Source: Thunnus maccoyii
Lineage: Eukaryota > Chordata > Actinopteri > Scombriformes > Scombridae
Reading direction: 5' to 3'
Assembly (NCBI RefSeq): GCF_910596095.1
Contig: NC_056550.1
Location: 14,478,501-14,542,500 of the forward strand
DNA length: 64,000 nucleotides
The notes beneath the pieces are model-generated. The model was not told where the DNA came from. It was given only the letters and a program-made list of their open reading frames with translations, and did no database searches. Position 1 is the stretch's first letter. Each line of letters opens with the position of its first letter. This document shows, in pieces, positions 24,258 to 61,855 of the stretch. Position numbers and translations under genes: made by a program.

Positions 24258-32139
<7,882 letters not shown>

Positions 32140-32795: not shown

Positions 32796-33769
32796 TGTGT
32801 GTTGGTTTACCAATCACTCAAATTGTTTCATACTTTAATCCCTGAATTATCTCTAATAGTCATAATTAAAACTAATTAAATTTTGAACACAAATGAATGT
32901 AAATCTGATGACCAATAGTTAAAATGAGGTTCATACATTGAAACAGAAAGTTTGCTGGTGATGTGTTCAACCAAACTTTGGAGCCATTTTGATTCTTGTC
33001 TTAATGAATTATCACAATTTTAGTTTGTCTAATAATTTTCTGAGTAGAAAATGTATTAATCTTGTATTGACTAACTTGTCTCATAAAATCCAGTGTACTG
33101 GTCCGAAATGTTTTAAACTGATTTAAATTGAGAAAACAGACAACATGCCATCGTACACATTTTACACAATGTACACTGGTTTTCAGGTAATTTTATAATA
33201 CGTTAAATTCTTTCTAAAGTTATATGGTTTATCTCTAACGTATTTAGAAGTATCACAATGAACAAAGTTAATGTTTCCAAGTGTAAAATAGTAAGATAAT
33301 GAAGCACTGGCAATAATGGTCCTTAACCTTTGGAACAAATTTTCTGAACTCCTATTACAAATTGAAACTCATTTATAATTTTTCTTCAACTGTTAACACT
33401 GCAAAGTTGCAAGGTATGATTTTTTTCTTTTTGAAGAATACATTTTTTTGCATTTCTAGAATTTGCCAAGTGCAAAGTGTTAAAATACAAGCCTGATATG
33501 GTGTGTCACTTTATGTTAATTTTTCAGGTAAGAACAGGTCTGTTTTGTAAAGTTGCCAGCTGTTGCAGTGTAATTCATATAATCTGAACATTGATGTAGT
33601 TTGTTTAAGGAATGACATCATAAAGTTAAAATTGAAAAAAAAAAGTTTACTGTATTCAGTGATATGTTTTACATATGTTTAAGAACATAAATAAGAGTCA
33701 AATCTTTCTTAATGTCAAAAACAAATCAAATGTATGAAAAGTATAGGTATGCACACTAACCCAACTGGT

Positions 33770-33775
33770 TTTATT
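33770..33775 (-). terminator. samd9l: Candidate poly(A) signal of SAMD9L copy 1
   Basis: AATAAA on the minus strand about 1.1 kb after the stop; the same hexamer is kept at 53557-53562 in copy 2. Other A-rich hexamers are nearby, so this is a candidate only. Confidence 0.3.
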
Positions 33776-34892
33776 TCCAGTTTCATCCTAAGACGTAGTA
33801 GGTTTTCATAGTTCATGGATATTCAATATCGATACAACCACTAAATTCTGCATGTTTCTAAAAACATTTTCATATCAAAATGTATATACGTTCCTATATA
33901 ACTGTAAATAATGTTGCTCTTAAGGCTTTTATACATTTCATGTCAAAACATTGATACAATTGAAGATTATTTTGTTTTTTGACACATATAGGTGCATTGA
34001 ATTGCATTACATTATACATTGCATCTTGGAAAATATAGAAGAATGAGTATAAGGTATCATAATCTACTAGAAGTTTAGGCCCTGCTCACACTTGGAACCA
34101 AAATTCATCTTGTGTGATGTGATCACAAGTAGACTCACAGTGAGGTACCAAAAAGCCACAACACTCCTCTTCTCCAGTTGTATGGCTGAGAGAAAATGCC
34201 TATTTTTAGGTATGCTAGCAGCATGGTTCTAGAGATAGCAATCAGTCTGTCATGCTAACATGCTAAACTGAAGGTGAATATGGTCAACATTATACCATTC
34301 GCATGTTAGCATTGTCATTAGCAGACTCTTGTTTTTTGTTTGTTAGCATCTAGTTTCCTGACAACACAAAGCAGAAATAGTCACTTGAGATGCACTTTGA
34401 TGCCATGTGTGAGCTGCAGTCCATCTCAACTGGATCTACAAACAATCTGAGTATAGAGAGATACAGGTCTGAACAGGGACTCAAAAGTAACTATTTGAAA
34501 AGCATTGAGCTGTAGCAAATTCAGTTTACATTGTTCCTTGTGACATAAACATGTTTTTTTGCAATTCAGCCGTAGTCCAGGTTAGATGTGATATACACAA
34601 AAACTTGTTATTAATTCTTATGACACTTTTTTTGAGTAGACCTACATATGTATATTCAGGTACAAAAAAATGAAATATCAAAACATCTTACATCTTACAA
34701 AACAATGCAATACTCATACCATATCATGTGCTTCAACATTTAGTTTTGTCTTCTCCAAATATTGCTTAATTCACAAACTGACATAAGAAGCACTGAGTGC
34801 TTTGAATTTATCTTTTCATAGTCCATTGTTGCTGGATATTTGGTCCATGCAAGTTGACATACAGCCGTATGTGATCATTGTCCAAAGGCAAA

Positions 34893-37800
34893 CTATTTTT
34901 TCACAATGATGTTGCAGGCAACAGGGCCTCTAAAGGTAAACCCCAAGTAGAACGTGATGTTTTCATTGCTATGAGGTACTGAAGGTACATGAAGAGGCAG
35001 GATACTGAACTTCTTTTTCTTAGGGCCCTGAAGGTACACCACTCCATCTTCAGTCCATCCAGAAACACATTTCAGCATCTGGGCAATCTCAGGCTTTTTC
35101 CATGCCTCACCACTTAACCATTTCATGCGTTTCTCAGAGACTGAGAACATCTTTGTGATTTTTTCAAACTTTCTCTTGTGGACAAATTTATCCAATCCAT
35201 TTCCACTGCCCAGAAAAAAATGGGTGTAAATCCGTCTCTTCCGCTGTGGAATGTCCTTCTTCTTAGTCCAGTAGTCTTTTTCCAGGTGTTCAACAGCTGA
35301 TTGCACAATTTCATATTTGGTTTCTTTCTCGTGGCCTGTGTCATGATCCTCTGGCCAAAATAGCAATGTAAGCAAGAACAGGGCACTTGGTAAACATTTC
35401 CTTTTATCAGTTGGGAACTGATGACACAGTGCCTGTAGATCTTTCAGAGAATCTACTTTTGAAGACTGAGGTGACAGGGATTTCAGAGTAATGTGGGCCA
35501 CTATGTAGTTGGCAATATCCCTTTGACCAAATTTGGCCTTTATTGGATTTCTGGGGTAGAGAGAAAGGATGCTCTCTAGAAGACGCACTGCATCCCTCTG
35601 GTCAGTCAGCTTTGAGAGGATGGATGTGATGTTGCCCCCACCAAGATGATAAATGATCATGCGTTTTTGAAAAGGCGTTAAATTGGCTGGGATCAACTGC
35701 CCGTGTTGTAGCAGTGCAGTAGAATGAGCTTCACTGAAGTACTTCCCATACTCTGAAGATTTTTTTGCCAACCATTTCAGTGGATGGCTTATCTTCTCCT
35801 CAGGACTTTTAGGGGTTTCTTCTTCATCTGCACTAATGTCTGTTTGGAAGTAACTTAGGTCTTCTGAAATCCATTCCAAGGCATCTTGCATTGTCTTGTG
35901 AAGTTTTTTCAAACGGCCATGAAATGGTTGCCAGGCTTCTTCAACTTCCTCAGGAATGTAATCTGTTAACAGGTACTTCATACACTCTGAATAGCCATTG
36001 CCCCTGTTTGCAAACACTTGTAATGAAGAGATCAGTTTGAGCAGGCTGCACCCAACCTCAACCTCAGAAAAAAACCCTGAACTGTTAACGTTTTCCATAT
36101 CTGCCTCAGCTGCTTTCTCACATTCTTGAAAACACTCCAGGGCTTTCAGTGCAGTCTCCACAGCATCTGCTGTATTTTGGGCTGTCTTTGGTGCATTGTC
36201 ATTGTCAATAGCTTTGCATTTAGCTTGGAACCACTTTCTGTACACTTGTCCTTTTGTGTCTAGTATGTATGAGTTGTTGGGCAGCTTTTTAGCAGCTGTC
36301 TCTGCCCAGTACTTTGCGTCTTTGAACTTTTCATAAGAATAATGAAGACGAGCAAGTTGCTGTGCAAAGAACGGATCTTCATGGAAACGCTGGAAAGCTT
36401 CCGTGAGTAACTCAATTGCTTTTCCTGGGCTTTTCTCGTTTTCGCAAACGTGCTCAATCAGAGGAGAGAAAAAACTATCATATTCGTCCCCTTTGCTTAT
36501 TCTGGTTCGCCTAATGAAAAGTGCTCTCAAAAATAACAGATATTCATCCCTTCCAAATCTGTGCTCAAAAAGCACGGTCTCGCAGAGTAAATTCATTGCC
36601 AAACTGCTTTGGGTCTGTTGGTTACTCAGAAGTTGTTGGAGAATTTCCTTTGCAACGAGCGGGTGGATGATTCTGATTGACTCAATGTGTGTCGTCTCAT
36701 CTCTAAGGTGCAAGAAGAGTAATTTAGCCTGATCACCGAGTAATCTCTCAAACTCATACTGCCGAAACCTTTCCAAGTGAATGGTTATGGCAAGCAAAGC
36801 TTCACAATGTGACTGAGAGATGAAAGAGTTTTGAACATAAGTGTTCAGCAGTGCTACATAGTGAATGAGGCGAGTGACAGCAGATTTATGGTCAATGTTT
36901 TTGAGCAAATTTGTCACAAAATGTTGAACGTAATCCTCACTGAATCCTTCACTCATCAAAACAAATGTCAGGATGAACTGAGGCTCATATCGTTTCTCAA
37001 GTACCTGTCGTTTTCCAGCAAACTTTCTTTTCTCTTGATCAGACAGTTTGTGAGTGACAGACACATTCTGTAATGGAGACTTCTTGCATCTTTTCTCTGG
37101 ATCATGGGATTGTCTGCAGCTCAGCAAAATGAAACATAGTGTTCCATACTGGATTCTCTTGACGTTGATAGCAACCTCTAGTTCATTCCTGAGATCATCT
37201 AGATATTCTTTGTCAGAGTCTTCAATGAGGAGCAGCACTGGAAGACACCTCTGTGGATCTTTTTCTTCATATTCTCTTAGTTCAACTGAATGTTGCGCAA
37301 CATCAGCAACTGAGTATGAAGGCTTCACAACCGCACACCTTAGATCTTTCCTGTTGTTCCACAGCACTTGTCTTGCCACAGTGCTTCCACCACTTCCTGG
37401 ATGGTGGTAGATGTTTATACTATTGACCGGAGTCTGATCTGCATTCCATTTCAAAGTATCATGGAGAAGTTTGGAAACCTCTCCATAAGCATTTCTTTCA
37501 ATTACCTCTCCAACGTATTTTTGCTCAGCAAGCCAGAAATTCAACCAGGTCACTCTCCCCCCACGGTAGAACTGTCGTTCAATGTTTTCTTTCTCCTCAT
37601 TGATGAAGTCTTCGCTTGTTTCATCACAATGATCAACAGTCAGAATCTCCAGAGAATACATCTGTTCCTCTTTAAGTGTCTCAAGAAGACATGTCCCTTT
37701 CACAAAGACTGGCAGGTGTTTTTTTGCACATGCTTTTACAGGTTGTACTTGCTGCAGAGTTGCATTAATGTGACTCATTTTCATCCCAACAACACTGGAA

Positions 37801-40800
37801 TTATTCACAGTTTCTGGTCCACATGAACCCTCTGCAAAGCTTTGCCATTTCTGAAAGTTATTCTCTGATTCACAGATGCAGATGATGTCTTCATGGCCTT
37901 CCATGTCTGTGAAAAACTCATAAAAGGTGTGCAAGAGTGGTTTCTCAACTGGTGATGTGAGAAGGAAAAGGACCTGGAATGTCCCTTTTGGCAAGATTTG
38001 TTTACAGATCAAAGACACAGATTCCCTCAGGAGAGTCATTTTTGTTTTGATCCAAGTCATTTCATCACATGGAGTTTCATTTCCTTGGAAGTCAGTACGG
38101 CCATTACAAAAGATCCAGCTAGTTTGTTCAAACAGATGCAAGTTGCTTGCAAATTCTTTGATGCTTGTGTCACTGGATATCCTATAGCTCTGCAAAAAAT
38201 GCATGTTTGCAGCATGATGCTGAAGGTATCTACTGCAAAGACCTGATATCTTTGAGTCTGGGTCAAAGTCAAACACGCAGAAGATGTTCATGTTAAGCAG
38301 CCAGTCAATGTTGCAAAGGTCATCAGGTTTGAATTTGTTTGTGACGAGTATGAACCATTTCTCTGTTTCGATGAATTTCTTTCCACTAGTCATTAGCATT
38401 GTGAGTTTTCTTCCAAGGTCTTGGCAGATCCATGGAGCACTGAGAAACTGACATTTCTCTGCTTCTTCTCTTTGAGTATCCCGATCTTTGACCCGCTGGT
38501 AAAAATCACCTAGGTCTTTGTCGCTCACTGGCTCTGTTTTTGTACCCACCCTCCGCAGAATCTTTTCTTTCTCAAACTCTAATTTGTTGGTTGTCTCATT
38601 GAAGTTTGGCAAACGAACTGCATACACCTTGCTCTTAACAATATGTATTGAAGGCACAATGTCAACCTCTATCACATACTTCTTTTCTGTACTGTCTCGA
38701 TCCATCACCTCAATGAACCTTGGTGGTCTCACACACTGGCGTACATGCTCTTTGTCCGAGGAGAAACTCCTCTCAATGTAGTCCAAAGCATCTACATAGA
38801 TGTCTTTCTCACTTACAGGGATACCAACTATCTCACCGTGCACGTATCCTACATCCTCCTTGCTGTCCATCACACCAAAGTGTATTGTGCCATTTGATCT
38901 GATATTCATACAGCCAGTCGCAAATTTAAGAACCTCTTTAGCAAATTTAGCTCGGAGTCTTGTGCAATCCAAGGTAGCAGCTACAGCAAGAGACTTAAAT
39001 TCATGGCATGGAGATATCAGATTAGAAGCCCCGGATTCAGGCTGCAGGACCCTGTTCTTTACATATAGAAAGTCAATGCCTTCTTGATCAAATGGTCGTG
39101 GTTTGCAGTCTTCCTTTGAGGTCAGCACACATGGTACTTTATCTGTTTGTCTCTCCTCTGAGACATCTTGATCTCTTTCAGGAATCTGTGTTGTGGGACC
39201 TTCACATGTTGTAGGTTGACACTGTACTGATGTCTGCTTGATGTTTTTCTGCTCCACCTCAGTTTTTTTGCCACCGGTGGGCTTTTTCTTCTCCTGAGAC
39301 TTTTTCTGGGAATCAAGGAGCTCGTCTCTCTTTTGAATAATCAAATGAGCAGGCCCTGATTTCATGCAAATCTTTGTCTTCAAAAAGTTCTCATTCAGTT
39401 CAAGAAGGATGTTTCCATCTACTTCTGCCTCATGGAGTTTCTTTATATACTGCGCCTTTAATCCAATAGATCTTAGCCAGGTACTGACTTGAGATTCAGT
39501 CCAATTCTTGGGTGACTGCTCAAGTTCATCAGCTGTATATTGAGAAAAGAAAAAAAACAATGAGTTTGATTATAAATAACAGAGTCACAGAAGCACAATA
39601 GTTCTCTTCACACACTTCAAGCATATTTGCTGTTTGGAAATTTAGAGAAGTCTGGTAGTGGCACATACTTTAATTATGGAATATATTCCAAAATATCTAT
39701 TTTGTCAGCAATGTGTTAATCTGTGTTTAAATACTGTGCAACTTTCTTAACCTGTCTGTGACTATACTATTAGGGCACTTTTTCTGAAAGCAGCTGCCTG
39801 CTGCTGGAAATATGGTTAATGAGAATGAATCAAAACAGTAAAGTTGTGGTTTGTAAAACCAAAACAATGAGCTGAAAGACACTAAAATGCGCCATAGAGC
39901 TACAGGGAAATGCAGAGTTGAGTGATTAATCTCTGTGAGTTTGTAACCACAAACACCTTTCACATTACACGTAGTTATTCGGCTCATATTTTTTGTTTGT
40001 TTGTTTTTAAATGTCTTTAAATTCTATCAATGAGTTTGTATTCACTGTAAATATAAAATGGTCACTTTTGCAGCCTCAAAGGGACGTCAAATGTTTTCAT
40101 TTTTAAAAAAGGATAAAGGGCGGCTGTGGCTCAAGAGGTAAAGCGGGTCGTCCACTAATCAGATTGGTGGTTCGATTCCCGGCTCTTCCTGTCCCCATGT
40201 CAATGTGTCCTTGGGCAAGATACTTAACCCCTAATTGCTCTTGATGGCTGTGCCATCATTGTGAGAATGTGTGTGAATGATTAGATTTCCTCTAATGGGC
40301 AGATTAGGACCTTGCATAGTAGCCCCTGTACCCATTCAGCGTATGAATGTGTGTCAATGGGTAAATGTGATTTGTAGTGTAAAAAGCGCTTTGAGTGGTC
40401 GGAAGACTAGAAAGGCGCTATACAAGTACAGTCCATTTACCATTTAAGTATTTTCATATGTGGATATATCTGTGTTATCAAGGGCTTGTCACACCTACAT
40501 AGGTGTTTCCAATTACTCTGGCTGATTAGACCTTTAGTTAGGTATAAAATGGATGGAGCTATGCAGGGATGTCACCAAGCTGTATAAAAATCATAAGAAG
40601 GTAAGTTGTCCCACCCTGACGAGTTCACAACTGTGTGGGTAGACTAGATATAAGATAAGACTTTTTTTTCCCCGATGGAAATTTGCCTTTGACACACAAT
40701 GCTGCTGCTGTACAGTACCAAATAATTCAACATGACTACACATCATATGTCTCATAAATACAGTGATTAAAAAGTACAATAAATTACTCAGGATAAAAAC

Positions 40801-41324
40801 AAAAAATCAAAAATACAGAATTTTGAGATCCTCAAAATAAAAAAAGGTAAAACACTGAAGAAACTAATCTACTGCACTGGCCCCTGACATCATTTATTAT
40901 ACATTCCCACATTCACCATACAGAACAGTACACAAACATCATCGTCATCACCATCATCATCAACAACAACAACAACAATCAACTCTTGCTACTGTTGGCA
41001 ATGTGCATTAGCTTTAACAGAAGATGGTAAACTGATTATTGTTTTTTGCTACACTGCACTAAATGCTGAGCTGTGGGTCATCATAATATTGCACACATCA
41101 AATCTCATATAGAAGACCAAATTATAATATGCCTTTATTATACAGGGTTAGTAGAGCCAAAACTGTTGTGCACAAAGGAGTATTTGAGGTATTTCAACTT
41201 TGAAAGTGGACAAAAAAATCATAAGATAAATTTCACAGCACACAGCTCAATCTACCACAACATCTTGTAAGTAATCAAAATAAGGATAACTCATAAAAAA
41301 CAACTTGTCAGGTCACTCACCCAT
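34893..41324 (-). CDS. samd9l: SAMD9/SAMD9L-like protein, copy 1 (1,547 codons)
   Basis: Large cytosolic innate-immune protein; mammalian relatives are interferon-induced, restrict viruses and act on translation through an AlbA_2 nuclease-like module. Coding exons: 41324-41321 (ATGG only) and 39532-34893. Join G+CT gives M-A-D-E-L-E. The apparent start MFFFFSQYT upstream of ADELEQ is intron: it is the polypyrimidine tract and acceptor. Predicted order: SAM (about residues 10-72, ending CMKSGPAHLIIQKRDEL), Lys/Gln-rich linker, AlbA_2/Schlafen-like (about 147-337), SIR2-like or linker region, P-loop NTPase with Walker-A-like HHPGSGGSTVAR (711-722) and Walker-B-like LPVLLLIEDSD (765-775), helical TPR-like region (about 1040-1400), C-terminal OB-fold-like part (about 1440-1547). 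The Walker A lacks the usual lysine. Length matches the family (about 1,580 in human). The symbol follows the fish usage for this group; SAMD9 versus SAMD9L cannot be decided here. Confidence 0.92.
40118..40446 (+). mobile_element. tRNA-derived SINE in the SAMD9L copy 1 intron
   Basis: Starts gggcggctgtggctcaag and carries a box-B-like ggttcgattcc, the layout of a Pol III tRNA head. The tail reads 'aaaggcgctatacaagtacag' in two parts followed by ccatttacc, a common fish SINE 3' pattern. It is absent from the matching introns of copy 2 and the middle fragment, where the sequence runs on from 'ggataagta'. Confidence 0.75.
40640..40720. repeat. LINE-like 3' fragment in the SAMD9L copy 1 intron
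   Basis: Contains 'aagactttttttt' and 'ccccgatggaaatttgcc', a motif typical of the 3' ends of fish LINEs. No reading frame remains. Found only in arm 1. Confidence 0.4.
40940..40978. repeat. Trinucleotide tract (CAT/CAA)
   Basis: Short run of atc/cat triplets followed by aac triplets. Confidence 0.8.
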
Positions 41325-41385
41325 GATTTTCTTTCTCCTTTTGTCACATAATCAACTTCAGGGTTTACTTATTATCACCTTCCTC
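41321..41385 (-). other. samd9l: SAMD9L copy 1 start exon (65 nt, ATG plus one base)
   Basis: Acceptor ttcctttgcag precedes 41385; donor gtgagtgacc follows 41321. The exon is mostly 5' UTR and ends ATCATGG. Equal-length exons with the same borders occur at 60672-60608 and 48905-48841. Confidence 0.75.
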
Positions 41386-42094
41386 CTGCAAAGGAAAGCA
41401 TTATACAGTTAACATCTGGCACAGTGGTTCCAGTTTCCTGATCTGGGGTCCGAACCCCCACAGGGGTCCCAAGATGAACCTGAGAGGACACTGGATCAGG
41501 ATAAGAAAGAAAAAGTATTTCTGTCTCTAATTTTGTACCTTTAGCTGTGAAATATGGTTTACTTTACATTGTTCAAAAATCATTCTTGTTTTAAGTGCTT
41601 ACAACTCATGTCCACAGCACTGCCATGAGCTGTGATAAGGATTCACAAGTAGGTACTTCATTTTAAGCGATACCAGTTTTGTGAGGCCGATATTGCTATC
41701 AATGTTTGATAGTTAAAAAAATAAACTGCAATATATTTTTGTTTTTACATACATACACAAACATTTTTGGTAAGGATATCTTTGGCATGTCTGTACTTCA
41801 AATTTCTTGTTACTTATCGGCAGACATACATATGCCAATAGTGATAAAATGTCAGCTGATTTATCACCAGGCTGACAAATCGGCTGACATTACCATGCCA
41901 GTCCACCAGGGGATTATGTGTACAAGTGATCTGTGTAACAAGTCCTCACTACTGCTTGTAAACACGACTAGTTAAGTCTTTGGATTTGTCCAAATCTTCC
42001 TGGCACCAGTGCAGCAAAGGTAAAAAGTTAGTCTTGAGCCTTGATATGTATTACTCAGCCTTTCTCTGTGTTCCTGTGTCAATTTGTGTTAACA

Positions 42095-42098
<4 letters not shown>

Positions 42099-42148
<50 letters not shown>

Positions 42149-42168
42149 CGTGTATGTGTGTATGTTGA
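42099..42168. repeat. TG microsatellite in the SAMD9L copy 1 5' intron
   Basis: About 45 bases of TG followed by interrupted gcgtgcgtgtatgtgtg. Confidence 0.9.
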
Positions 42169-42789
42169 GCTGAGCTGAGCAAAGTTTATTGAAATAAATA
42201 AATAAATTGAATTAATTAATTAATTGGGAAAGAAAATAAGGAAATTACTTTTGAGAGCTTGTAGTTCAAACAAGACAAATTGGACAAAATTCAAAACATC
42301 ATACACACATAGTAGCCATATAAGGTACATCCAATTATTATAGTTATGTTGTAAATACTAAGATTTAGTTTTAGGATCAAGGTTTGAATTTGACTTAGGT
42401 TTTAGGTTGGAGTATGTGATGGTTAAGGTTAAGGGGCTTCAATCAAGTAGGCTTTGACAGTTAGTAGATAAGACAATGTGCGTATGTGTATTCTACCAAA
42501 TATATCGTAACAAGCATTGAATTATAGGGTTATTAGCAGTTTAGAGAAAGTATTTCCTAAAGACCAGTGAAAGCTTCAAAACTCATATATGACTAAAAGT
42601 AAATATTCATGTATTTGAGATAAAACTCACTTGTTTTATTTGATTTGTGTCCAAATTGTGATTTCTATTCTATCACATCAGACCATTTTCCCCTCTTTCT
42701 GTTCTCATCTACTTTGGCCTGCCTGATGTTGTTGCACATTACCATAGCAAAAACCAATACATTGAAAAAAAGGCGATCATTCTTCTTAC

Positions 42790-42946
42790 CTTGAATACTG
42801 AGGGAGAACACTGTCCTTTTCTCATGCAGATTTTTAAAATATCCTGAAGTCACATTTTTTTCTAAGGTTTACATGTTGTTACCGACTAAACCTTCAGGAC
42901 TGCTGCTACTGCACACAATGTGTCAGCTAACTGGGCTGCATGACAC
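42790..42946 (-). other. samd9l: Probable 5' UTR exon and promoter-proximal region of SAMD9L copy 1
   Basis: A strong donor (TATTCAAG then gtaagaag, edge 42790) is preserved at the same place in copy 2 (61720). The 5' edge of the exon is not determined. Similarity between the arms stops near 42946, where the triplicated hAT flank takes over, so the promoter of copy 1 has been rebuilt. I saw no clean GAAANNGAAA element. Confidence 0.45.
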
Positions 42947-45900
42947 TGTAAGCTTCATTCAAGAGTAAGGTCCATTCAGGTGAAAAGGAAAAAGGCTGGG
43001 ATTAGCCCACCTATTTGACCTTTAGAGTGCCATTTATCACAAAATTATATAACTATGGTGAGTCACACCCCAGTATCAACTAGGAGGTGCCTGTTTACCA
43101 GATACAGTGCCAGTATGAACAGTGCAGCCAAAGCAGGTCATAAAAGTTTGAATGATACATACAAAAGAATCTTTAAAGAACTTGTTTTGGACACCGTTCT
43201 GTCACATTGTAAACTCTTGAAAACACCCTTTAAACTTTATAAATACAGCAACACTAATAATTAATAATATTGTGCCAGCTGTGGGTCACGTACACACAAT
43301 CTTCTTTACACATATTGTACATCAGTGGAGGCTGGTCCATAGAGGCAGACGAGGTTGATCCTCCTCTATTTTTTGAGAGGCAGAGGAGTGGGGGACAGAG
43401 GAGGACAGGTGCCTGCTGACCTCCGCAGGGCAGGATCTCTTACATTGGACTCAATGTATTTCTTTTTTTTTCATGCTAATCTGTGATTGGCCATGACATG
43501 TAAAATGACGCTCCAAGGGGGGGGGGGCTGTCCTCCCTTACCAATCAACAACCAGAATGCAATATTGATATCGAGTTGGTCCAATGACAGTTTCCAGATT
43601 TCATCTTCAATTCTCTACACTGTAAAGCAGAGTAGCAGCAGTAGATAGCTCCTTGCGTTAGCCAATGCAAGAGTTAGCTTGTTGTAGCAGCCTGAAGGAC
43701 TCTTTATACATCCATGGAAGGACTGTTAAGGACTGTTGTCAAGCTAGCGGGAGAAATTATCTGGTCTGTGCAGTGCAGCAGCTGCAGGACGCTGCCATGG
43801 AGGCTAGAGAGAGAAGCAACCGGAGAAACAACCAGTAGAGTTAGTTTGTTTGTCATTGTTGCTAATGATATCAGACTAGTTAACCAGCAGCCACAAAGTT
43901 CTCTTAACTAACAAACAAGATGACCAACAGCTACCAATGGACGTTATGACATGAATACTTCATCTACCAAGGTCTACATGTTGTTACCGACTAAACCTTC
44001 AGGACTGCTGCTACTGCACACAATGTGTCAGCTAACTGGGCTGCATGACACTGTAAGCTTCATTCAAGAGTAAGGTCCATTCAGGTGAAAAGGAAAAAGG
44101 CTGGGATTAGCCTACCTATTTGACCTTTACAATGCCATTTATCACAACATTATATAACTATGGTGAGTCACACCCCAGTATCAACTAGGAGGTGCCTGTT
44201 TACCAGATACAGTGCCAGTATGAACAGTGCAGCCAAAGCAGGTCATAAAAGTTTGAATGATACATACAAAAGAATCTTTAAAGAACTTGTTTTGGACACC
44301 GTTCTGTCACATTGTAAACTCTTAAAAACACCCTTTAAACTTTATCAATATAGCAACACTAATAATTAATAGTATTGTGTCAGCTGTGGGTCACGTACAC
44401 ACAATCTTCTTTACACATATTGTACATCAGTGGGGGCTGGTCCATAGAGGCAGACGAGGTTGATCCTCCTCTATTTTTTGAGAGGCAAAAGGGAGATCAA
44501 AATATAAAAAAGAATATTTGGTTGAAATAAACCATTACCAAATCTCAGTATTTATAAAGTGTTTTTCTTTCTTCATTGGAAAAAATCCATTGCTGAAATT
44601 CAGTTTAAAATGCTTCAACAACGACACCTGCAGGGCAGGAGGAGAAAGAGCAGTGTGTGAAGTGGTGGTGGTGGTGGGGGGGGGGGGGCGCAATTGGTGG
44701 AGGTGGAGTGGGGGACAGAGGAGGACAGGTGCCTGCTGACCTCCGCAGGGCGGGATCTCTTACATTGGACTCAATGTTTTTTGTTTTTTTTTCATGCTAA
44801 TCTGTGATTGGCCATGACATGTAAAATGACGCTCCAAGAGGGGGGCTGTCCTCCCTTACCAATCAACAACCAGAATGCAATATTGATATCGAGTTGGTCC
44901 AATGACAGTTTCCAGATTTCATCTTCAATTTTCTCCACTGTAAAGCAGAGTAGCAGCAGTAGATAGCTCCTTGCGTTAGCCAACGCAAGAGTTAGCTTGT
45001 TGTAGCAGCCTGAAGGACTCTTTATACATCCATGGAAGGACTGTTAAGGACTGTTGTCAAGCTAGCGGGAGAAATTATCTGGTCTGTGCAGTGCAGCAGC
45101 TGCAGGACGCTGCCATGGAGGCTAGAGAGAGAAGCAACCGGAGAAACAACCAGTAGAGTTAGTTTGTTTGTCATTGTTGCTAATGATATCAGACTAGTTA
45201 ACCAGCAGCCACAAAGTTCTCTTAACTAACAAACAAGATGACCAACAGCTACCAATGGACGTTATGACATGAATACTTCATCTACCAAGGTCTACATGTT
45301 GTTACCGACTAAACCTTCAGGACTGCTGCTACTGCACACAATGTGTCAGCTAACTGGGCTGCATGACACTGTAAGCTTCATTCAAGAGTAAAGTCCATTC
45401 AGGTGAAAAGGAAAAAAGCTGGGATTACCTATTTGACCTTTACAGTGCCATTTATCACAACATTATATAACTATGGTGAGTCACACCCCAGTATCAACTA
45501 GGAGGTGCCTGTTTCCCAGATACAGTGCCAGTATGAACAGTGCAGCCAAAGCAGGTCATAAAAGTTTGAATGATACATACAAAAGAATCTTTAAAGAACT
45601 TGTTTTGGACACCTTTCTGTCACATTGTAAACTCTTAAAAACACCCTTTAAACTTTATCAATATAGCAACACTAATAATTAATAGTATTGTGTCAGCTGT
45701 GGGTCACATACACACAATCTTCTTTACACATATTGTACATCAGTGGAGGCTGGTCCATAGAGGCAGACGAGGTTGATCCTCCTCTATTTTTGAGAGGCAA
45801 AAGGGAGATCAAAATATAAAAAAGAATATTTGGTTGAAATAAACCATTACCAAATCTCAGTATTTATAAAGTGTTTTTCTCTCTTCATTGGAAAAAATCC

Positions 45901-46273
45901 ATTGCTGAAATTCAGTTTAAAATGCTTCAACAACGACACCTGCAGGGCAGGAGGAGAAAGAGCAGTGTGTGAAGTGGTGGTGGGGGGGGGGTTGTAGCAG
46001 CCTGAAGGACTCTTTATACATCCATGGAAGGACTGTTGAGGACTGTTGTTAAGCTAGCGGGAGAAATTATCTGGTCTGTGCAGTGCAGCAGCTGCAGGAC
46101 GCTGCCATGGAGGCTAGAGAGAGAAGCAACCGGAGAAACAACCAGTAGAGTTAGCTTGTTTGTCATTGTTGCTAATGATATCAGACTAGTTAAGCAGCAG
46201 CCACAAAGTTCTCTTAACTAACAAACAAGATGACCAACAGCTACCAATGGACGTTATGACATGAATACTTCAC
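42869..46273 (+). repeat. Three-copy tandem repeat made of host flank plus hAT left end
   Basis: Units begin at 42869, 43971 and 45289, each with ggtctacatgttgttaccg or a close variant, so they are about 1.10, 1.32 and 0.98 kb. Each carries about 450 bp of host flank, then the hAT left end (43323, 44428, 45741). Unit 1 lacks about 200 bp inside the hAT part; unit 3 lacks another piece after its G run. Two small open frames recur in every unit (69 codons at 43055, 44160 and 45473; 65 codons at 43714, 45032 and 46024); they track the repeat and show no domain. Confidence 0.9.
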
Positions 46274-47593: not shown

Positions 47594-48164
47594 TTGTACA
47601 TACATTCACATACCAACTGACAGAGATGGTTAAATAATATTAATAAAGATTAAAGACTGTGTGTGACCACACAGCTGATTGGTCTTTAGTAGATTTAGAG
47701 TCTAAACTTCATCTATGGTCTTCTCATTAGCGTAGGTAGTCTTGCTTTTAATTTGACAAGTTTACATAATTGATTTCTAATTGACATTGTGGGTGAATGT
47801 GATGTGCTGTTTGTGTAGCTTTGTATTTTGTATTTTGTATGGTGTGTTCTGTGTGTTTTTTGCTTTCTTTGTTGTTGTGCTGTTGTATGTTTTGATTGTG
47901 GGGGACTGCAGATGCATATTAGCTCTGAGCTAACTCCAGTGCAGTGCATCTTTAATGTTTAAAAACTGCACACTGTCCCAATCAATAAATCAAATCAAAT
48001 CAAATATACATACACAGAGATGTGTAAACACTAGGTATTTTTTCACATTATACCCATTTCCTGAGATGATATTCCATTTTATTCAAGAGTGTAAAACCAC
48101 ACTGCTCTAGCCAAGACTCAGGCTTCAAAGTACAAGCCACATTAAAAACAAAAAAAAACAAAAC
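47594..48164. other. Flank between the hAT element and the orphan SAMD9L fragment
   Basis: Contains a possible LINE 3' tail (about 47810-48005, ending in aaatcaaatcaaatcaaat). The stretch 48030-48165 is repeated at about 50725-50830 (both carry 'ctgagatgatatt' and 'gtgtaaaaccacactg'). No gene seen. Confidence 0.5.
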
Positions 48165-50375: not shown

Positions 50376-51695
50376 ATATGTGCACTAAAATCAAATGTTT
50401 TTGCTTGTGGCAGTTATGACAATCATTTTTTATGCATGTGTGTTTGACAGGCAAGCTTCACCAACACTCAAGAGATTTATTATGCTTATGTATTCTACTT
50501 CATTGTATCAATTTGAATAGAACAAGTTGAGAAATGGGTCCATACTTTTGAAAATTAGCTCCTAGCAGCCATGTTGGTCCTGCACTGCAGCAGCTCATAA
50601 CAGGCAAACTTACCTCTCAGTAGACCGAGAGATGAACCACTCTGAAATAGACAGGTAATGACTTACTGCTCCCAGAATAGAGAATGACCAGATAATGACC
50701 AGTGGAACAAAAATATTTCCCCCATAATACCCATTTTCTGAGATGATATTTCATTTTATTCAAAAGTGTAAAACCACACTGATGTTGCCAAGATTCAGAC
50801 TTCAAAGTACAAGCTATATTAAAAAAAAACAACTTTTACCTTCACATGGCACAAAAGTATCAATCACTGAATACCATAACACACACTGTAATGAGAAATA
50901 ATCCCACACAACTATAAAAGTTGTAAAAATTAGTAGTAGGATTTTCTTTTTTTAGAGTAACCACACACGTACTTTGCAAACACATGGTAACTTTATCTGC
51001 ATAAAGTATGATGAGCATCCACCACATTTATGATGTTCATTTGTTTAAGTCAACTTTTGCAATAACAAAAGGGCCTTTTTGTGAATTCTTTGGATCTTTG
51101 TTCCTGGTTGGTAGCACCCTGAAAGACTTTGAGATTGAATATAAAGGTAATGAGTAGAGCTTTTGTTTATTGAATGAAAGCCCTTTTTGTATAGAAACAT
51201 AAATAGTCACAGAAGCAGTGTCAGGGTGTGATTGTGAAAGAAAATGTAAATAAAAACGAAGACATTTTAACCTAGACCTTGCAAGCTTTCCTACAAGCAT
51301 ACAATTCTCTATGTTACTGATCTAAATTTGTGAAATCTGGTGTTTATGTTCATACTGTATTTTAGTCTCCCAGTCATCCAATTTTGAGTTTCTTATGATA
51401 TCCCTGGCATGGTTGTGGTGGTAGAAGGGTACAGAGCAAACCAAACTTTTAATTTCCCAAAACTTCCTGTAGCTTCTTCTGAGGGATCTTAAAGGGCTTT
51501 CATTTAGGATGAGATGTGTAATCCCTCCGATGTGTCCTGGATCACTTCTCCATTAGAGCAAAGTTATGTTACCACATGCCAAAACTGCTCTGTCCTGAAT
51601 GCAGAGAGATAAGAGAGTGTTTCTTTAATTTAATAGGTCCTTTTTGGCAGAGGCCTGATTGTGCAACAATGCTCCAAAATGTTTAGTAACAGACA
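50376..51695. other. Broken duplication debris with SAMD9L upstream similarity
   Basis: Around 51590-51695 it matches the copy 2 promoter flank (61909-62155): 'ctgtcctgaatgca', 'gagtgtttctttaatt', 'cagaggcctgattgt' and 'caatgctccaaaa' are in the same order. The part 50725-50830 repeats 48030-48165. No gene seen. Confidence 0.55.
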
Positions 51696-51698
51696 TAC

Positions 51699-52270: not shown

Positions 52271-52571
52271 TCAAAATAGTTTAGTAATTCACTTTCTCCG
52301 AAGTGCAGAACAGTAAATGTAGAGCGCGAGTTCCACCCGGAATGTTTTGGCAGTGCACTACTTATTCAGTTCAATTCAGACTTTCTTAAGGACACAACTC
52401 ATTGGAGGTCCATAACACAATACTTAGTTGTAGCATGCTAATGGATGTATGCTAGCCGGCTTAGACAAGGTACCCTCATTACTCTGGTTACCCTGTAGTG
52501 TTGCTGCTGTTAGAATAACAAACAAGAGACCCACAGCACTGACCGAGTGCAACACTATTATTAAAATATGC
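52271..52571. other. Spacer between the Tc1 remnant and duplication arm 2
   Basis: No gene or intact element recognised. Similarity to arm 1 starts at about 52572. Confidence 0.5.
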
Positions 52572-54672
52572 TCCTGTGTGTTGCTTTACCAATCACCCAG
52601 ATTGTCTCATACTTTAATCCCTGAATTATTTCTAATAATCACAATTAAAACTAATTAAAATTTTAAACACAAATTAATAGAAATCTGATGATCACTAGTT
52701 AAAATGAGGTTCATACACTGAAACAGAAAGCTGGCTGGTGATGTGTTCAACGAAACATTGGAGCCATTTTGATTCTTGTCTTAATGAATTATCACAATTT
52801 TAGTTTGTTTCATCCTTTTCTGAGTAGAAAATGTATTAATCTTGTATTGACTAACTTGTCTCAATCACAGAACCCAGTGTACTGGTCCAAAATGTTTTGA
52901 ACTGAATTAAAATGAGAACAGTAAGGACAACATGCCATTATACACATTTTACACAATGTACACTGTTTTCCAGGTGATTTTATAATACATTTAATTCTTT
53001 CTAAAGTTATATGGTTTATCTCTAACGTATTTAGAAGTATCACAATGAACAAAGTTAATGTTTCCAAGTGTAAAATAGTAAGATAATGGAGCACTGGCAA
53101 TAATGGTCCTTAACCTTTGGAACAAATTTTCTGAACTCCTGTTACAAATTGAAACTCATTTATAATTTTTCTTCAACTGTTAACACTGCAAAGTTGAAAG
53201 GTATGATTTTTTTCTTTTTGAAGAATACATTTTTTTTGCATTTCTAGAATTTGCCAAGTGCAAAGTGTTAAAATACAAGCCTGATATGGTGTGTCACTTT
53301 ATGTTAATTTTTCAGGTAAGAACAGTTCTGTTTTGTAAAGTTGCCAGCTGTTGCAGTGTAATTCATATAATCTGAACATTGATGTAGTTTGTTTAAGGAA
53401 TGACATCATAAAGTTAAAATTGAAAAAAAAGGTTTACTGTATTCAGTGATATGTTTTACATATATTTAAGAACATAAATAAGAGTCAAATCTTTCTTAAT
53501 GTCAAAAACAAATCAAATTTATGAAAAGTATAGGTATGCACACTAACCCAACTGGTTTTATTTCCAGTTTCATCCTAAGACGTAGTAGGTTTTCATAGTT
53601 CATGGATATTCAATATCGATACAAGCACTAAATTCTGCATGTTTCTAAAAACATTTTCATATCAAAATGTATATACATTCCTATATAACTGTAAATAATG
53701 TTGCTCTTAAGCTTTTTATACATTTCATGTCAAAACATTGATACAATTGAAGATTACTTTGTTTTTTGACACATATAGTTGCATTGAATTGCATTACATT
53801 ATACATTGCATCTTGGAAAATATAGAAGAATGAGTATAAGGTATCATAATCTACTAGACGTCCAGAAGTTTAGGCCCTGCTCACACTTGGAACCAAAATT
53901 CATCTTGTGTGATGTGATTACAAGTAGACTCACAGTGAGGTACCAAAAAGCCACAACACTCCTCTTCTCCAGTTGTATGGCTGAGAGAAAATGCCTATTT
54001 TTAGGTATGCTAGCAGCATGGATCAGTCTGCCATGCTAACATGCTAAACTGAAGGTGAATATGGTCAACATTATACCATTCGCATGTTAGCATTGTCATT
54101 AGCAGACTCTTGTTTTTTGTTTGTTAGCATCTAGTTTCCCGACAACACAAAGCAGAAATAGTCACTTGAGATGCACTTTGATGCCATGTGTGAGCTGCAG
54201 TCCATCTCAACTGGATCTACAAACAATCTGAGTATAGAGAGATACAGGTCTGAACAGGGACTCAAAAGTAACTATTTGAAAAGCATTGAGCTGTAGCAAA
54301 TTCAGTTTATATTGTTCCTTGTGACATAAACATGTTTTTTTGCAATTCAGCCGTAGTCCAGGTTAGATGTGATATACACAAAAACTTGTTATTAATTCTT
54401 ATGACACTTTTTTTGAGTAGACCTACATATGTATATTCAGGTACAAAAAATGAAATATCAAAACATCTTACATCTTACAAAACAATGCAATACTCATACC
54501 ATATCGTGTGCTTCAACATTTAGTTTTGTCTTCTCCAAATATTGCCTAATTCACAAACTGACATAAGAAGCATTGAGTGATTTGAATTGATCTTTTCATA
54601 GTCCATTGTTGCTGGATATTTGGTCCATGCAAGTTGACATACAGCCATATTTGATCATTGTCCAAAGGCAAA

Positions 54673-57600
54673 CTATTTTTTCACAATGATGTTGCAGGCA
54701 ACAGGGCCTCTAAAGGTAAACCCCAAGTAGAACGTGATGTTTTCATTGCTATGAGGCACTGAAGGTACATGAAGAGGCAGGATACTGAACTTCTTTTTCT
54801 TAGGGCCCTGAAGGTACACCACTCCATCTTCAGTCCATCCAGAAACACATTTCAGCATCTGGGCAATCTCAGGCTTTTTCCATGCCTCACCACTTAACCA
54901 TTTCATGCGTTTCTCAGAGACTGAGAACACCTTAATGATTTTTTCAAACTTTCTCTTGTGGACAAATTTATCCAATCCATTTCCACTGCCCAGAAAAAAA
55001 TGGGTGTAAAGCCTTCTCTTCCGCTGCGGAATGTCCTTCATTTTGGTCCAGTAGTCTTTTTCCAGGTGTTCAACAGCTGATTGCACAATTTCATATTTGG
55101 TTTCTTTCTCATGGTCTGTGTCACGATCCTCTGGCCAAAATAGCAATGTAAGCAAGAACAGGGCACTTGGTAAACATTTCCTTTTATCAGTTGGGAACTG
55201 ATGACACAGTGCCTGTAGATCTTTCAGAGAAGCTACTTTTGAAGACTGAGGTGACAGGGAGTTCAGAGTAATGTGGGCCACTATGTAGTTGGCAATATCC
55301 CTTTGACCAAATTTGGCCTTTATTGGATTGCTGGGGTAGAGAGAAAGGATTCTCTCTAGAAGACGTACTGCATCCCTCTGGTCAGTCAGCTTTGAGAGGA
55401 TGGATGTGATGTTGCCTCCACCAAGATGATAAATGATCATGCGTTTTTGAAAAGGAGTTAAATTGGCTGGGATCAACTGCCCGTGTTGTAGCAGTGCAGC
55501 TTCACTGAAGTACTTCCCATACTCTGAAGATTTTTTTGCCAACCATTTCAGTGGATGGCTTATCTTCTCCTCAGGACTTTTAGGGGTTTCTTCTTCATCT
55601 GCACTAATGTCTGTTTGGAAGTAACTTAGGTCTTCTGAAATCCATTCCAAGGCATCTTGCATTGTCTTGTGAAGTTTTTTCAAACGGCCATGAAATGGTT
55701 GCCAGGCTTCTTCAACTTCCTCAGGAATGTAATCTGTTAACAGGTACTTCATACACTCTGAATGGCCATTGCCCCTGTTTGCAAACACTTGTAATGAAGA
55801 GATCAGTTTGAGCAGGCTGCACCCAACCTCAACCTCAGAAAAAAACCCTGAACTGTTAACGTTTTCTATATCTGCCTCAGCTGCTTTCTCACATTCTTGA
55901 AAACACTCCAGGGCTTTCAGTGCAGTCTCCACAGCATCTGCTGTATTTTGGGCTGTCTTTGGTGCATTGTCATTGTCAATAGCTTTGCATTTAGCTTGGA
56001 ACCACTTTCTGTACACTTGTCCTTTTGTGTCTAGTATGTATGAGTTGTTGGGCAGCTGTTTAGCCGCTGTCTCTGCCCAGTACTTTGCGTCTTCGAACTT
56101 TTCATAAGAATAATGAAGACGAGCAAGTTGCTGTGCAAAGAACGGATCTTCATGGAAACGCTGGAAAGCTTCCGTGAGTAACTCAATTGCTTTCCCTGGG
56201 CTTTTCTCGTTTTCGCAAACGTGCTCAATCAGAGGAGAGAAAAAACTATCATATTCGTCCCCTTTGCTTATTCTGGTTCGCCTGATGAAAAGTGCTCTCA
56301 AAAATGACAGATATTCATCCCTTCCAAATCTGTGCTCGAAAAGCACGGTCTCGCAGAGTAAATTCATAGCCAAACTGCTTTGGGTCTGTTGGTTACTCAG
56401 AAGTTGTTGGAGAATTTCCTTTGCAACGAGCGGGTGGATGATTCTGATTGACTCAATGTGTGTCGTCTCATCTTTAAGGTGCAAGAAGAGTAATTTAGCC
56501 TGATCACCGATTAATCTCTCAAACTCATACTGCCGAAACCTTTCCAAGTGAATGGTTATGGCAAGCAAAGCTTCACAATGTGACTGAGAGATGAAAGAGT
56601 TTTGAACATAAGTGTTCAGCAGTGCTACATAGTGAATGAGGCGAGTGACAGCAGATTTATGGTCAATGTTTTTGAGCAAATTTGTCACAAAATGTTGAAC
56701 GTAATCCTCACTGAATCCTTCACTCATCAAAACAAATGTCAGGATGAACTGAGGCTCATATCGTTTCTCAAGTACCTGTCGTTTTCCAGCAAACTTTCTT
56801 TTCTCTTGATCAGACAGTTTGTGAGTGACAGACACATTCTGTAATGGAGACTTCTTGCATCTTTTCTCTGGATCATGGGATTGTCTGCAGCTCAGCAAAA
56901 TGAAACATAGTGTTCCATACTGGATTCTCTTGACGTTGATAGCAACCTCTAGTTCATTCCTGAGATCATCTAGATATTCTTTGTCAGAGTCTTCAATGAG
57001 GAGCAGCACTGGAAGACACCTCTGTGGATCTTTTTCTTCATATTCTCTTAGTTCAACTGAATGTTGCGCAACATCAGCAACTGAGTATGAAGGCTTCACA
57101 ACCGCACACCTTAGATCTTTCCTGTTGTTCCACAGCACTTGTCTTGCCACAGTGCTTCCACCACTTCCTGGATGGTGGTAGATGTTTATACTATTGACCG
57201 GAGTCTGATCTGCATTGCATTTCAAAGCATCATGGAGAAGTTTGGAAACCTCTCCATAAGCATTTCTTTCAATTACCTCTCCAACGTATTTTTGCTCAGC
57301 AAGCCAGAAATTCAACCAGGTCACTCTCCCCCCACGGTAGAACTGTCGTTCAATGTTTTCTTTCTCCTCATTGATGAAGTCTTCGCTTGTTTCATCACAA
57401 TGATCAACAGTCAGAATCTCCAGAGAATACATCTGTTCCTCTTTAAGTGTCTCAAGAAGACATGTCCCTTTCACAAAGACTGGCAGGTGTTTTTTTGCAC
57501 ATGCTTTTACAGGTTGTACTTGCTGCAGAGTTGCATTAATGTGACTCATTTTCATCCCAACAACACTGGAATTATTCACAGTTTCTGGTCCACATGAACC

Positions 57601-60600
57601 CTCTGCAAAGCTTTGCCATTTCTGAAAGTTATTCTCTGATTCACAGATGCAGATGATGTCTTCATGGCCTTCCATGTCTGTGAAAAACTCATAAAAGGTG
57701 TGCAAGAGTGGTTTCTCAACTGGTGATGTGAGAAGGAAAAGGACCTGGAATGTCCCTTTTGGCAAGATTTGTTTACAGATCAAAGACACAGATTCCCTCA
57801 GGAGAGTCATTTTTGTTTTGATCCAAGTCATTTCATCACATGGAGTTTCATTTCCTTGGAAGTCAGTACGGCCATTACAAAAGATCCAGCTAGTTTGTTC
57901 AAACAGATGCAAGTTGCTTGTGAATTCTTTCATGCTTGTGTCACTGGATATCCTATAGCTCTGCAAAAAATGAATGTTTGCTGCATGATGCTGAAGGTAT
58001 CTACTGCAAAGACCTGATATCTTTGAGTCTGGGTCAAAGTCAAACACACAGAAGATGTTCATGTTAAGCAGCCAGTCAATGTTGCAAAGGTCATCAGGTT
58101 TGAATTTGTTTGTGACGAGTATGAACCATTTCTCCTTTTCGATGAATTTCTTTCCACTAGTCATTAGCATTGTGAGTTTTCTTCCAAGGTCTTGGAAGAT
58201 CCCTGGAGCACTGAGAAACTGACATTTCTCTGCTTCTTCTCTTTGAGTATCCCGATCTTTGACCCGCTGGTAAAAATCACCTAGGTCTTTGTCGCTCACT
58301 GGCTCTGTTTTTGAACCCACTCTCCGCAAAGTCATTTCTTTCTCAAACTCTACTTTGTTGGTTGTCTCTTTGAAGTTTGGCAAACGAACTGCATACACTT
58401 TGCCCTTAACAATATTTACTGAGGGCACGATGTCAACCTCTACCACATACTCCTTTTCTGTACTGTCTCGATCCATCACCTCAATGAACCTTGGTGGCCG
58501 CACACACTGGCGTACATGCTCTTTGTCAGAAGAGAAACTCCTCTCAATGTAGTCCAAAGCATCTACATAGATGTCTTTCTCTTTTACAGGGATACCAACT
58601 ATCTCACCGTGCACATATCCTGTATCTTCCTTGCTGTCCATCACACCAAAGTGTATTGTGCCATTTGATCTGATATTCATACAGCCAGTCGCAAATTTAA
58701 GAACCTCTTTGGCAAATTTAGCTTGGAGTCTTGTGCGATCCAAGGTAGCGGCTAAAGCAAAAGATTTAAATTCATGGCATGGTGATGTCAGATTAAAAGC
58801 CCCTGATTCAGGCTGCAGGACCCTGTTCTTTACATATAGAAAGTCAATGCCTTCTTGATCGAATGGTCGTGGTTTACAGTCTTCCTTTGAAGTCAGCACA
58901 CATTGTTCTTTAGCCGTTTGTCTCTCCTCTAAGACATCTTGATCTCTTTCAGGAATCTGTGTTGTGGGACCTTCACATGTTGTAGATTGACACTGTACTG
59001 ATGTCTGCTTGATGTTTTTCTGCTCCACCTCAGTTTTTTTGCCACCGGTGGGCTTTTTCTTCTCCTGAGACTTCTGCTGGGAGTTGAGGAGCTCATCTCT
59101 CTTTTTAATAATCAAGTGAGCAGGCCCTGATTTCATGCAAATCTTTGTCTTCAAAAAGTCCTCATTCAGTGCAAGAAGGATTTGTCCATCTACTTCTTCC
59201 TCATAGAGTTTCTCTATATACTGTGCCTTCACTCCAAAAGATCTTAGCCAGGTGCTCACTTGAGATTCAGTCCAATTCTTGGGTGACTGGTCAAGTTCAT
59301 CAGCTGTATATTGAGAGAAGACAAAAAAGCAATAAGTTTGATTATAAATAATAGGGTCAGAAAATCATGATTGTTCTCTTCACACACTTAAAGCAAAAGC
59401 AGAAGTTTGGTCATGGCGACTACTTTTAATATTTTGTCAACAAATCCCATGAAAAGACCGAAACCAACAAGAATACAAAACCAACTTCCCTAAACTAATT
59501 TCCCTAACTGCTAAAGGCAGTTTAGGGAAGTTACCTATTAATTTGTACTGAACACTTTAATCTTTAAAGAGAGTATTGTTTGATTTTGAGGGGCCACTTG
59601 AGGGGCAATTGAACAAGCTGTAATCACAACATTGACATATTACAATATATTTTTATATTTATAATTTGGCAGATGCTAATACTAACATCTTATAAAGCTG
59701 ATATTGTGAATTGTTGTCTATTACACATCCAGCAGACATGGAGAAGTGTTAGCAATAATTTGGAGTTATGATTCTGGCCACCCTGTTAGCTGTGGTCTGG
59801 TCTACACCAGCTCCTGAGGGAAATAACTGGCCCTTCAGCTACTAAATGCTCCACCATGTTCACCGGCTAGTTGCTAACTTTGTCTGTTTGGTGCTGGGCA
59901 GGAAGCGTACAGTGGGTTTATCAGAGCTATACTGTACTATCAGAGTGTTTTTGCTGAAAACAGCTGCCTGCTGCTGCTGCGAATAATTTTAATAAGAGAA
60001 TGAGAATGAACCAAAACAGCAAAGTTGTCATCCGTAAAACTAAAACTAGGAGTTGAGAGATGCTAAAATGTTCCTTAGAGCTACATGAACTGCAGAATGG
60101 GGTGATTATTCTCTGTGAGTTTATAACCACAAGCAACACTTTTCAAATTACACATTGTAAATTGGCTCATATTTTTTGTTTGTTGGTTTTTAAATTATTT
60201 TTATTAATCAATTCTATTTTTTTAAATGGATAAGTAATTTGATGTGGGTATATGTGTGATATTAAGGGCTTGGCACTACACAGGTGTTTCCAATTGGATG
60301 TACATTAGCTTAAACAGATGATGGTAAATTGATTATTCTTGTTTGCCAAACTGCACTAAATGTTGAGCTGTGTTTTGTTATTTGCACACATCCAGTCTCA
60401 TATAGAGCATCAAGTTATAATATGCCTCTATTATTGTGTTGGTGGAGCCAAATCTGTTGTGCACAAATGAATATTTTAGGTATTTCAACTTTGAAAGTGG
60501 AAAAAAAAGAGACAATTTTCACTGCACACATCTCTACCTACCACAACATCTTGTAAGTAATCAAAGTAAGGACATCTCATAAAAAAAAAACTTGTCAGGC

Positions 60601-60611
60601 CACTCACCCAT
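54673..60611 (-). CDS. samd9l: SAMD9/SAMD9L-like protein, copy 2 (1,544 codons)
   Basis: Paralogue of the gene at 34893-41324 with the same two-exon coding layout: 60611-60608 (ATGG) and 59303-54673; the join gives M-A-D-E-L-D. A start at 59259 would be the GTG valine of TESQVSTW, inside the SAM domain, and is wrong. Domains as in copy 1: SAM, AlbA_2/Schlafen-like, SIR2-like region, STAND-like P-loop NTPase (HHPGSGGSTVAR), TPR-like helices, C-terminal OB-like part. By eye count it differs from copy 1 at about 41 of the first 465 residues, at 2 of the next 475, and at about 17 of the last 600 plus a 3-residue deletion (HST lost in FSEAALLQHG). Both frames are open, so both are presumably functional. 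The regulatory region is less rearranged than that of copy 1. Confidence 0.92.
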
Positions 60612-60672
60612 GATTTTCTTTCTCCTTTTGTCACATAATCAACTTTGGGGTTTACTTATTATGACTTTGTCT
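60608..60672 (-). other. samd9l: SAMD9L copy 2 start exon (65 nt, ATG plus one base)
   Basis: Acceptor ttttcttttgcag before 60672 and donor gtgagtgg after 60608. Same length and borders as the copy 1 exon at 41385-41321. Confidence 0.75.
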
Positions 60673-61719
60673 CTGCAAAAGAAAACATTATACAGTTACA
60701 TTCAGTCTATTACCACCTAGCAGAGTGGTTCCCATTTCCCAGCCTGGGGGTCAGAACCCCCAAAGGGGTCCCACGATAAATCTGAGAGGTCACCTGAACA
60801 GGATAAGAAATAAAAAGTATTTGTTTCTGTTATACAGGATTATATGTCTCTAATTTTGACCCTTTTGGTGTGAAATACAATTTATTTTCCCCTGTTTAAA
60901 AATCATTCTTGTTTAAGTGCTGGGTCTCTCGGTTTTTTTTGTTGTTGTTAAAGTTGCATTTAATTTTTGTTATGTTCATATTTGAATGATATTTTGATTT
61001 CATTAAGTGGTTAATAGTTAGGGTCCAAATGTTCTTTCTTACATGATTATTATTCCTTTCATAGACAAACATTGTATGTTCATCAAAGTATACAACTTAT
61101 TTTTAAGCCTCCCCAGCACCCCCTAAATTTATTTTATTGAAATAAATAAATTGAATTAATTGACGAATTAATCGGGAAAGAAAATAAGGAAATTACTTTT
61201 GAGAGCTTGCAGTTCAAAACAGGAACTAGGAAAAAATTCAAATCAACATACGCACATAGCCATAAAAGGCATAGACTGTATAAAGGATAAAAGGTACATC
61301 CAATTAATGTAGTTATGTTGTAAATAAGAATTAGCCTAGTTAAAAAAATTAAGAATTAGAAGATTTAGTTTTAGGGTCAAGGTTTGAATTTGGCTTAGGT
61401 TTTAGGGTGGGGTATTGGATGGTTAGACAGTTAGCAGACAAGACAATTGTGTGTAATGTTTTATGTGTGTATTCCCCCGAATACACTAAGAAACATTGAA
61501 TTATAGGGTTATTAGCAGTTTGGAGACAGTTCCCTAAAGACCGGTAAAAGCTTAATAAACTCATATATGAGTAAAAGTAAATATTCATGCATTTGAGATA
61601 AAACTCACTTGTTTTATTCGATGCGTGTTCATTTTCCCCTCTTTTTGTTCTCACTTGCCTACCGACTGTCGTTACATATTACCATAGCAAAAGCAAAAAA
61701 AGACGATCATTCTTCTTAC

Positions 61720-61855
61720 CTTGAATACTGAGTCCTTTTCACCTGTGGATTTTTAAAATATCCTGCAATCACACTTTTTCCTTCGGTCTGGAAGTTGTTG
61801 CCGACTAAACCTGTAGGACTGCTGCTACTGTACAGGATGTGTCGGCCGACTGGGC
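61720..61855 (-). other. samd9l: Probable 5' UTR exon region of SAMD9L copy 2
   Basis: Donor TATTCAAG then gtaagaag at 61720, conserved with 42790 in arm 1. The upstream exon edge and the start site are not fixed. The flank to the right (61860-62160) recurs at 51590-51695, so it may be the original promoter. Confidence 0.45.

Follow-up and report, generated by a model that had tools for sequence, protein, structure and literature searches.

A tandem array of SAMD9-family genes between GAA and ERN1 in Thunnus maccoyii, with a mosaic of divergence that suggests gene conversion between two intact copies

Organization of the locus

We analysed a window of 64,000 nucleotides from Thunnus maccoyii (assembly GCF_910596095.1, contig NC_056550.1, positions 14,478,501 to 14,542,500 of the forward strand), and all coordinates below are positions in this window. 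Only two open reading frames of at least 250 codons from an ATG occur in it, 34893-39365 and 54673-59136. Both are read from the minus strand and lie within stop-to-stop frames of 1558 (copy A) and 1563 codons (copy B). Self-comparison places these full-length frames in direct repeat arms, 32796-42944 (~10.1 kb) and 52575-61863 (~9.3 kb), in agreement with the first-pass annotation, which had described two open SAMD9L-like genes in direct arms of ~10.2 and 9.3 kb. The lengths of the arms thus stand as proposed; their near-identity, however, is limited to the lower 6.8 kb, namely 32796-39623 versus 52575-59395 (96.7% over 6846 columns), and beyond 39623/59395 the arms align in patches only, at 70-86%, with long unmatched segments in between. 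The window self-comparison yielded no repeat of at least 100 bases touching the DNA left of 32.7 kb, and no inverted repeat of at least 150 bases was found in 28-64 kb.

From ERN1 to GAA the array runs B, C, A, with every gene, the flanking ones included, on the minus strand; C is a third, partial copy described further below. The identity of the flanking genes, likewise proposed beforehand, is borne out by the following exons:

31591-32160, minus strand: GAA exon encoding a P-type trefoil domain, with lysosomal alpha-glucosidase as the best PDB matches
63194-63769, minus strand: last coding exon of ERN1/IRE1, flanking copy B on the right

Exons encoding a GH31 domain lie to the left of the GAA trefoil exon. 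Farther out, the window contains a RabGAP-TBC exon (6411-6686, minus strand) and a TBC-like exon (9803-10102) that has no Pfam match and whose PDB matches are TBC1D17 and TBC1D15. The two exons perhaps belong to TBC1D16, which neighbours GAA in the human genome.

Gene models and family assignment

The exon models of the three copies are predictions made from the DNA alone. For the two complete copies they comprise an untranslated first exon, a small second exon with the start codon and a single long coding exon:

34893-39532, minus strand: copy A exon 3, holding all of the coding sequence except the ATG and the following G (open frame, splice model, phmmer)
41321-41385, minus strand: predicted copy A exon 2, 5' UTR followed by ATG G and then a GTGAGT donor
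42790-42944, minus strand: predicted untranslated copy A exon 1, with a CAAG/GTAAGA donor after 42790 that is common with copy B
54673-59303, minus strand: copy B exon 3 (open frame, splice model, phmmer E 1.8e-172)
60608-60672, minus strand: predicted copy B exon 2, 5' UTR followed by ATG G
61720-61863, minus strand: predicted untranslated copy B exon 1, with a GTAAGA donor after 61720 and an uncertain 5' end

The 5' end of copy A exon 1 is equally uncertain, 42944 being the edge of homology to copy B (block 42684-42944). In both copies the splice model places an acceptor directly before the coding exon, and the join of exon 2 to exon 3 reads MADEL..., giving proteins of 1547 (A) and 1544 (B) amino acids with a single terminal stop. 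The true start is therefore likely to lie in the upstream exon 2 rather than at the first ATG of the long frame.

We assign both proteins to the SAMD9 family because each has a SAM domain and a GG[T/S] P-loop, retains all four acidic tRNase residues and shows a near-whole-length match to human SAMD9. The last amounts to ~580 bits over ~1400 residues for each copy, extends to chain residue 1447/1450 and reaches a phmmer E of 1.1e-172 for copy A against the human SAMD9 structures; SAMD9 makes up the close PDB relatives of both copies throughout. The SAM domain scores above the Pfam cut-off (SAM_2, 4.1e-9 in A; SAM_1, 2.6e-7 in B), and the AlbA_2 and TPR matches fall below it. On the TPR array and the C-terminal OB-fold that characterise the family, the observations are thus these weak TPR matches and an alignment to human SAMD9 that reaches almost the end of the chain. 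The solved human tRNase domain (7ksp) is recovered by phmmer at 1.5e-31 (A) and 7.9e-30 (B). Residues E184, E196, E218 and D241 of human SAMD9 align with E, E, E and D in both copies, as do the tRNA-binding K198 and K214 with K and K, and R221 is replaced by K in both (roles of the residues as in PMC13245274 and PMC12331169); the human numbering was set by hand from a stated domain start of 156, and all seven named residues fit the letters. The P-loop reads GSGGS in both copies, within YHHPGSGGST, with a histidine upstream of the loop, corresponding to the family signature, in which GGT/S replaces GKT/S and a His farther upstream is conserved (PMC5445408). Neither copy has a match in NCBIfam or PADLOC at E 0.1, and none of the pattern stretches found for copy A in viral and prokaryotic contig collections (0 of 16 and 0 of 59) was confirmed as a relative, a result that is uninformative on fish.

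Copies A and B share 1485 of 1545 aligned residues, as against the far weaker match of ~580 bits to human SAMD9. This contrast supports an origin of the pair separate from that of mammals, as the first-pass annotation had held. The human SAMD9/SAMD9L pair, located at 7q21, shares with A and B the SAM domain, the AlbA-type tRNase region with its four acidic residues and the GGT/S P-loop, but the array described here is a separate, later duplication that lies beside GAA and ERN1. The coding sequences of human SAMD9 and SAMD9L each occupy a single exon, whereas the start codon of A and B lies in a short exon of its own; a further difference is the R221 to K replacement.

Mosaic divergence of the two complete copies

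The divergence between copies A and B is distributed unevenly along the arms. At the outer 3' edge the mismatch is 9.1%, in the C-terminal coding part 1.7%, in the N-terminal coding part 5.49%, and in the 91 intron columns adjoining the N-terminal coding end 13%. Two segments stand out:

33201-34892, unstranded: noncoding 3' flank of copy A, with 26 mismatches in 1676 columns against copy B (1.55%; 98.4% identical)
A 36741-38130 = B 56512-57901, unstranded: near-identical tract, with 2 mismatches in 1390 columns (0.14%)

The near-identical tract includes 705 bases without a mismatch (A 36741-37445), the longest identical run, which was matched in none of 10000 permutations. Constraint on the protein could explain the outcome of this test taken by itself. 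Synonymous divergence shows the same partition, with a dS of 0.12 for codons 1-480, 0 for codons 481-900 and 0.038 for codons 901-1545; the longest stretch between synonymous changes spans 518 codons, again matched in 0 of 10000 permutations. Further, the noncoding 3' flank has diverged less than the N-terminal coding part (1.55% versus 5.49%, p 1e-9). Given the synonymous gap and the identity of a noncoding flank, protein constraint is insufficient as the cause. The simplest account that the mosaic suggests is gene conversion or unequal exchange, and the pattern fits an older tandem duplication that was homogenised afterwards by gene conversion.

That the coding sequence is nonetheless constrained is evident from pairwise dN/dS, which outside the putatively converted tract spans 0.26-0.44. 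Purifying selection acts significantly on the tRNase segment (0.32, p 0.0009), the linker (within 0.27-0.32, p 0.03) and the C-terminal part (0.26, p 0.0003), whereas the SIR2-like (within 0.27-0.32, p 0.06) and SAM segments (0.44, p 0.12) are not significantly below 1 on their own. No positive selection was seen in the N-terminal part, where the pairwise A-B values are 0.27-0.44; the segment boundaries were chosen by us, and a pairwise mean can mask single sites.

This constraint would also fit an account that dispenses with conversion altogether: a single tandem duplication of ~10 kb, in which selection held the coding sequence while the rest drifted. It would accommodate both the purifying selection on the coding region and the fact that the upstream noncoding DNA has diverged most. 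However, dS differs between segments (0.12 versus 0), and the noncoding DNA at 33201-34892 is 98.4% identical as against 70-86% for the upstream noncoding DNA. Selection on the protein explains neither of these contrasts, for which reason we judge a single duplication improbable and favor an older duplication with later conversion.

Upstream repeats of copy A

A further difference between the two complete copies lies at their 5' ends:

42864-46278, minus strand: tandem repeats of the DNA at and before copy A exon 1 (self-BLAST, repeat scan and motif scan)

The units of this array are spaced at ~1.0-1.3 kb, are 96-98% alike and are present at copy A only. Each contains one exact TTTCNNTTTCNC interferon-response-like site (42980, 44085 and 45403), and these three are the only exact ones in the window; copy B has a single-mismatch TTTCNNTTTCNC site at 61882. 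The 10-base core TTTCNNTTTC shows no enrichment in the window (6 occurrences versus 4.99 expected, with as many in 37 of 100 shuffles). The 12-base pattern with one mismatch allowed occurs 44 times against a mean of 23.7, a count reached in 0 of 100 shuffles, but we give this excess little weight: the sites are spread window-wide, a good number of them are rich in T, and several are present twice as parts of the two arms. Since the 10-base core occurs about as often as expected by chance, control of A and B by interferon can be offered only as a guess.

Copy C

Between the arms lies the third, partial copy that had been noted beforehand. Its presence is confirmed; a coding part, in contrast, is not detectable in it:

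48164-50104, minus strand: copy C remnant, comprising exon 2 and parts of introns, with patches continuing to 51695
48841-48905, minus strand: predicted copy C exon 2, with ATG A and then a GTGAGT donor

The segment 48164-49934 is 84-91% similar to the region upstream of the coding exon of copy B, and 49997-50104 is 80.9% similar to the upstream region of copy A; the patches 51571-51614 and 51635-51695 match DNA between copy B exon 1 and the coding end of ERN1. No coding body of copy C was found in 42-52 kb by tblastn with copy A as the query at E up to 10, and the same search over the whole window returned A, B and three chance-level pieces. A direct repeat of 108 bases (48046-48153 versus 50723-50829, 88.9%), possibly a mobile element, has one of its copies beside the broken edge of C.

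Over 477 common ungapped columns the similarity is highest between B and C (90.4%), followed by A and C (86.0%) and A and B (85.5%). On this ground copy A was probably the first to split off, prior to the separation of B and C; these being three unrooted sequences, a faster-evolving A would look alike.

Rather than a dead remnant, copy C might be an alternative 5' end in use by gene A. Its exon 2 keeps a start codon and a donor, would splice in frame to copy A exon 3 (at 39532) to read MTDEL..., and lies on the same strand as A and upstream of it. Against this, no exon 1 of copy C was seen, the exon-1 donor motif being present in A and B only; its exon 2 is ~9.3 kb away from copy A exon 3, and the promoter of copy A itself intervenes. 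Such a role for C thus appears unlikely to us, and we treat it as a remnant that lacks the coding body.

The 705 identical bases bear also on the assembly, as runs of this kind are difficult for assemblers and a local collapse could be a partial source of the mosaic. That the array as a whole is an artefact, with two divergent haplotypes from a single locus, or else a collapsed array, set in tandem, is very improbable: the identical run and the high polymorphism that fish SAMD9-like genes can show, as in the akame (PMC11346364), would speak for it, but divergence between the arms amounts to 14-30% in their upstream parts, which also contain long unmatched segments, no exon of GAA or ERN1 is repeated with the arms, C is a third copy that is broken differently, the repeats at 42.9-46.3 kb occur at A alone, and the window contains no N. 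In the akame, which has a low-diversity genome, a SAMD9-like sequence carries 25 low-impact and 92 moderate-impact variants (117) in 2151 bases; its authors removed windows in which depth or mappability was odd, and balancing selection is their preferred explanation for such peaks (PMC11346364). Collapsed paralogues would be an alternative worth checking for that SAMD9-like peak.

Discussion

Taken as a whole, we consider it quite likely that the locus holds a tandem SAMD9-family array in which A and B were homogenised by conversion, C is without a coding body, and the function is antiviral in the manner of SAMD9. In the history that we propose, an ancestral SAMD9-family gene would have duplicated at least twice, with A branching off first and B and C separating thereafter; later ectopic gene conversion or unequal exchange between A and B would have transferred a large part of the coding exon, together with the 3' flank, from one copy to the other, while the N-terminal third and the 5' region would retain the older, larger divergence.

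Human SAMD9 is a nuclease for tRNA-Phe that can be activated by poxviruses (PMC13245274). By analogy, the intact A and B proteins would be kept inactive by their own core, and on infection the AlbA-type tRNase domain would cut phenylalanine tRNA, resulting in a shut-down of translation; the extra copies may increase the dose or spread the target of viral antagonists. Judged by their kinship to the human protein, A and B are probably working translation-blocking antiviral effectors. We met no report of tRNase activity for a fish protein in the excerpts of the SAMD9-family literature that we drew on. A more elaborate possibility, which we hold to be rather doubtful, is a division of labour in which conversion keeps codons 481-980 (the SIR2-like/NTPase region) uniform while the SAM and tRNase regions and the promoters diverge; if true, two versions of the effector end would sit on one common switch, and the promoter repeats of copy A would tune its induction.

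Duplication of SAMD9 in bony fishes is already known. Independent duplications were described in PMC5445408 and are repeated by the review PMC13245274, which both contradict an older claim, quoted in PMC3685527, that fish are without SAMD9/SAMD9L genes. The copies described there resemble A and B in being independent bony-fish copies, but the excerpts that we used of these two sources, and of the trout study PMC12648952, describe neither a position at GAA/ERN1 nor the order of the genes nor a pattern of conversion. A search that left most subscription journals outside found no paper on SAMD9L together with GAA and ERN1, and among papers judged by title and the start of the abstract none dealt with SAMD9 and gene conversion. 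What the present locus adds, as mildly interesting features, is the mosaic attributed to conversion and the repeated units at the promoter of copy A.

Several reports connect the family with antiviral responses in fish. Trout IFNA2 induces samd9l in wild-type Chinook salmon cells, and the induction is lost in a stat2-knockout (PMC6612602); four samd9-like genes take part in a rhabdovirus response specific to one trout line (PMC12648952); salmon gill poxvirus disease has SAMD9L among its induced genes (PMC7509425); and overexpression of a SAMD9L homologue from zebrafish is described, at second hand, as triggering immune genes (PMC12698002).

SAMD9 and SAMD9L are antiviral translation blockers as well as human disease genes. 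The GAA/ERN1 locus leaves knowledge of the family as such unchanged. Fish with multiple copies show, as a natural experiment, how a self-harming effector undergoes duplication, how its copies stay in step and how they are regulated. To this the locus contributes a single, well-defined pair whose exon model is clear and whose pattern of conversion is testable in other fish.
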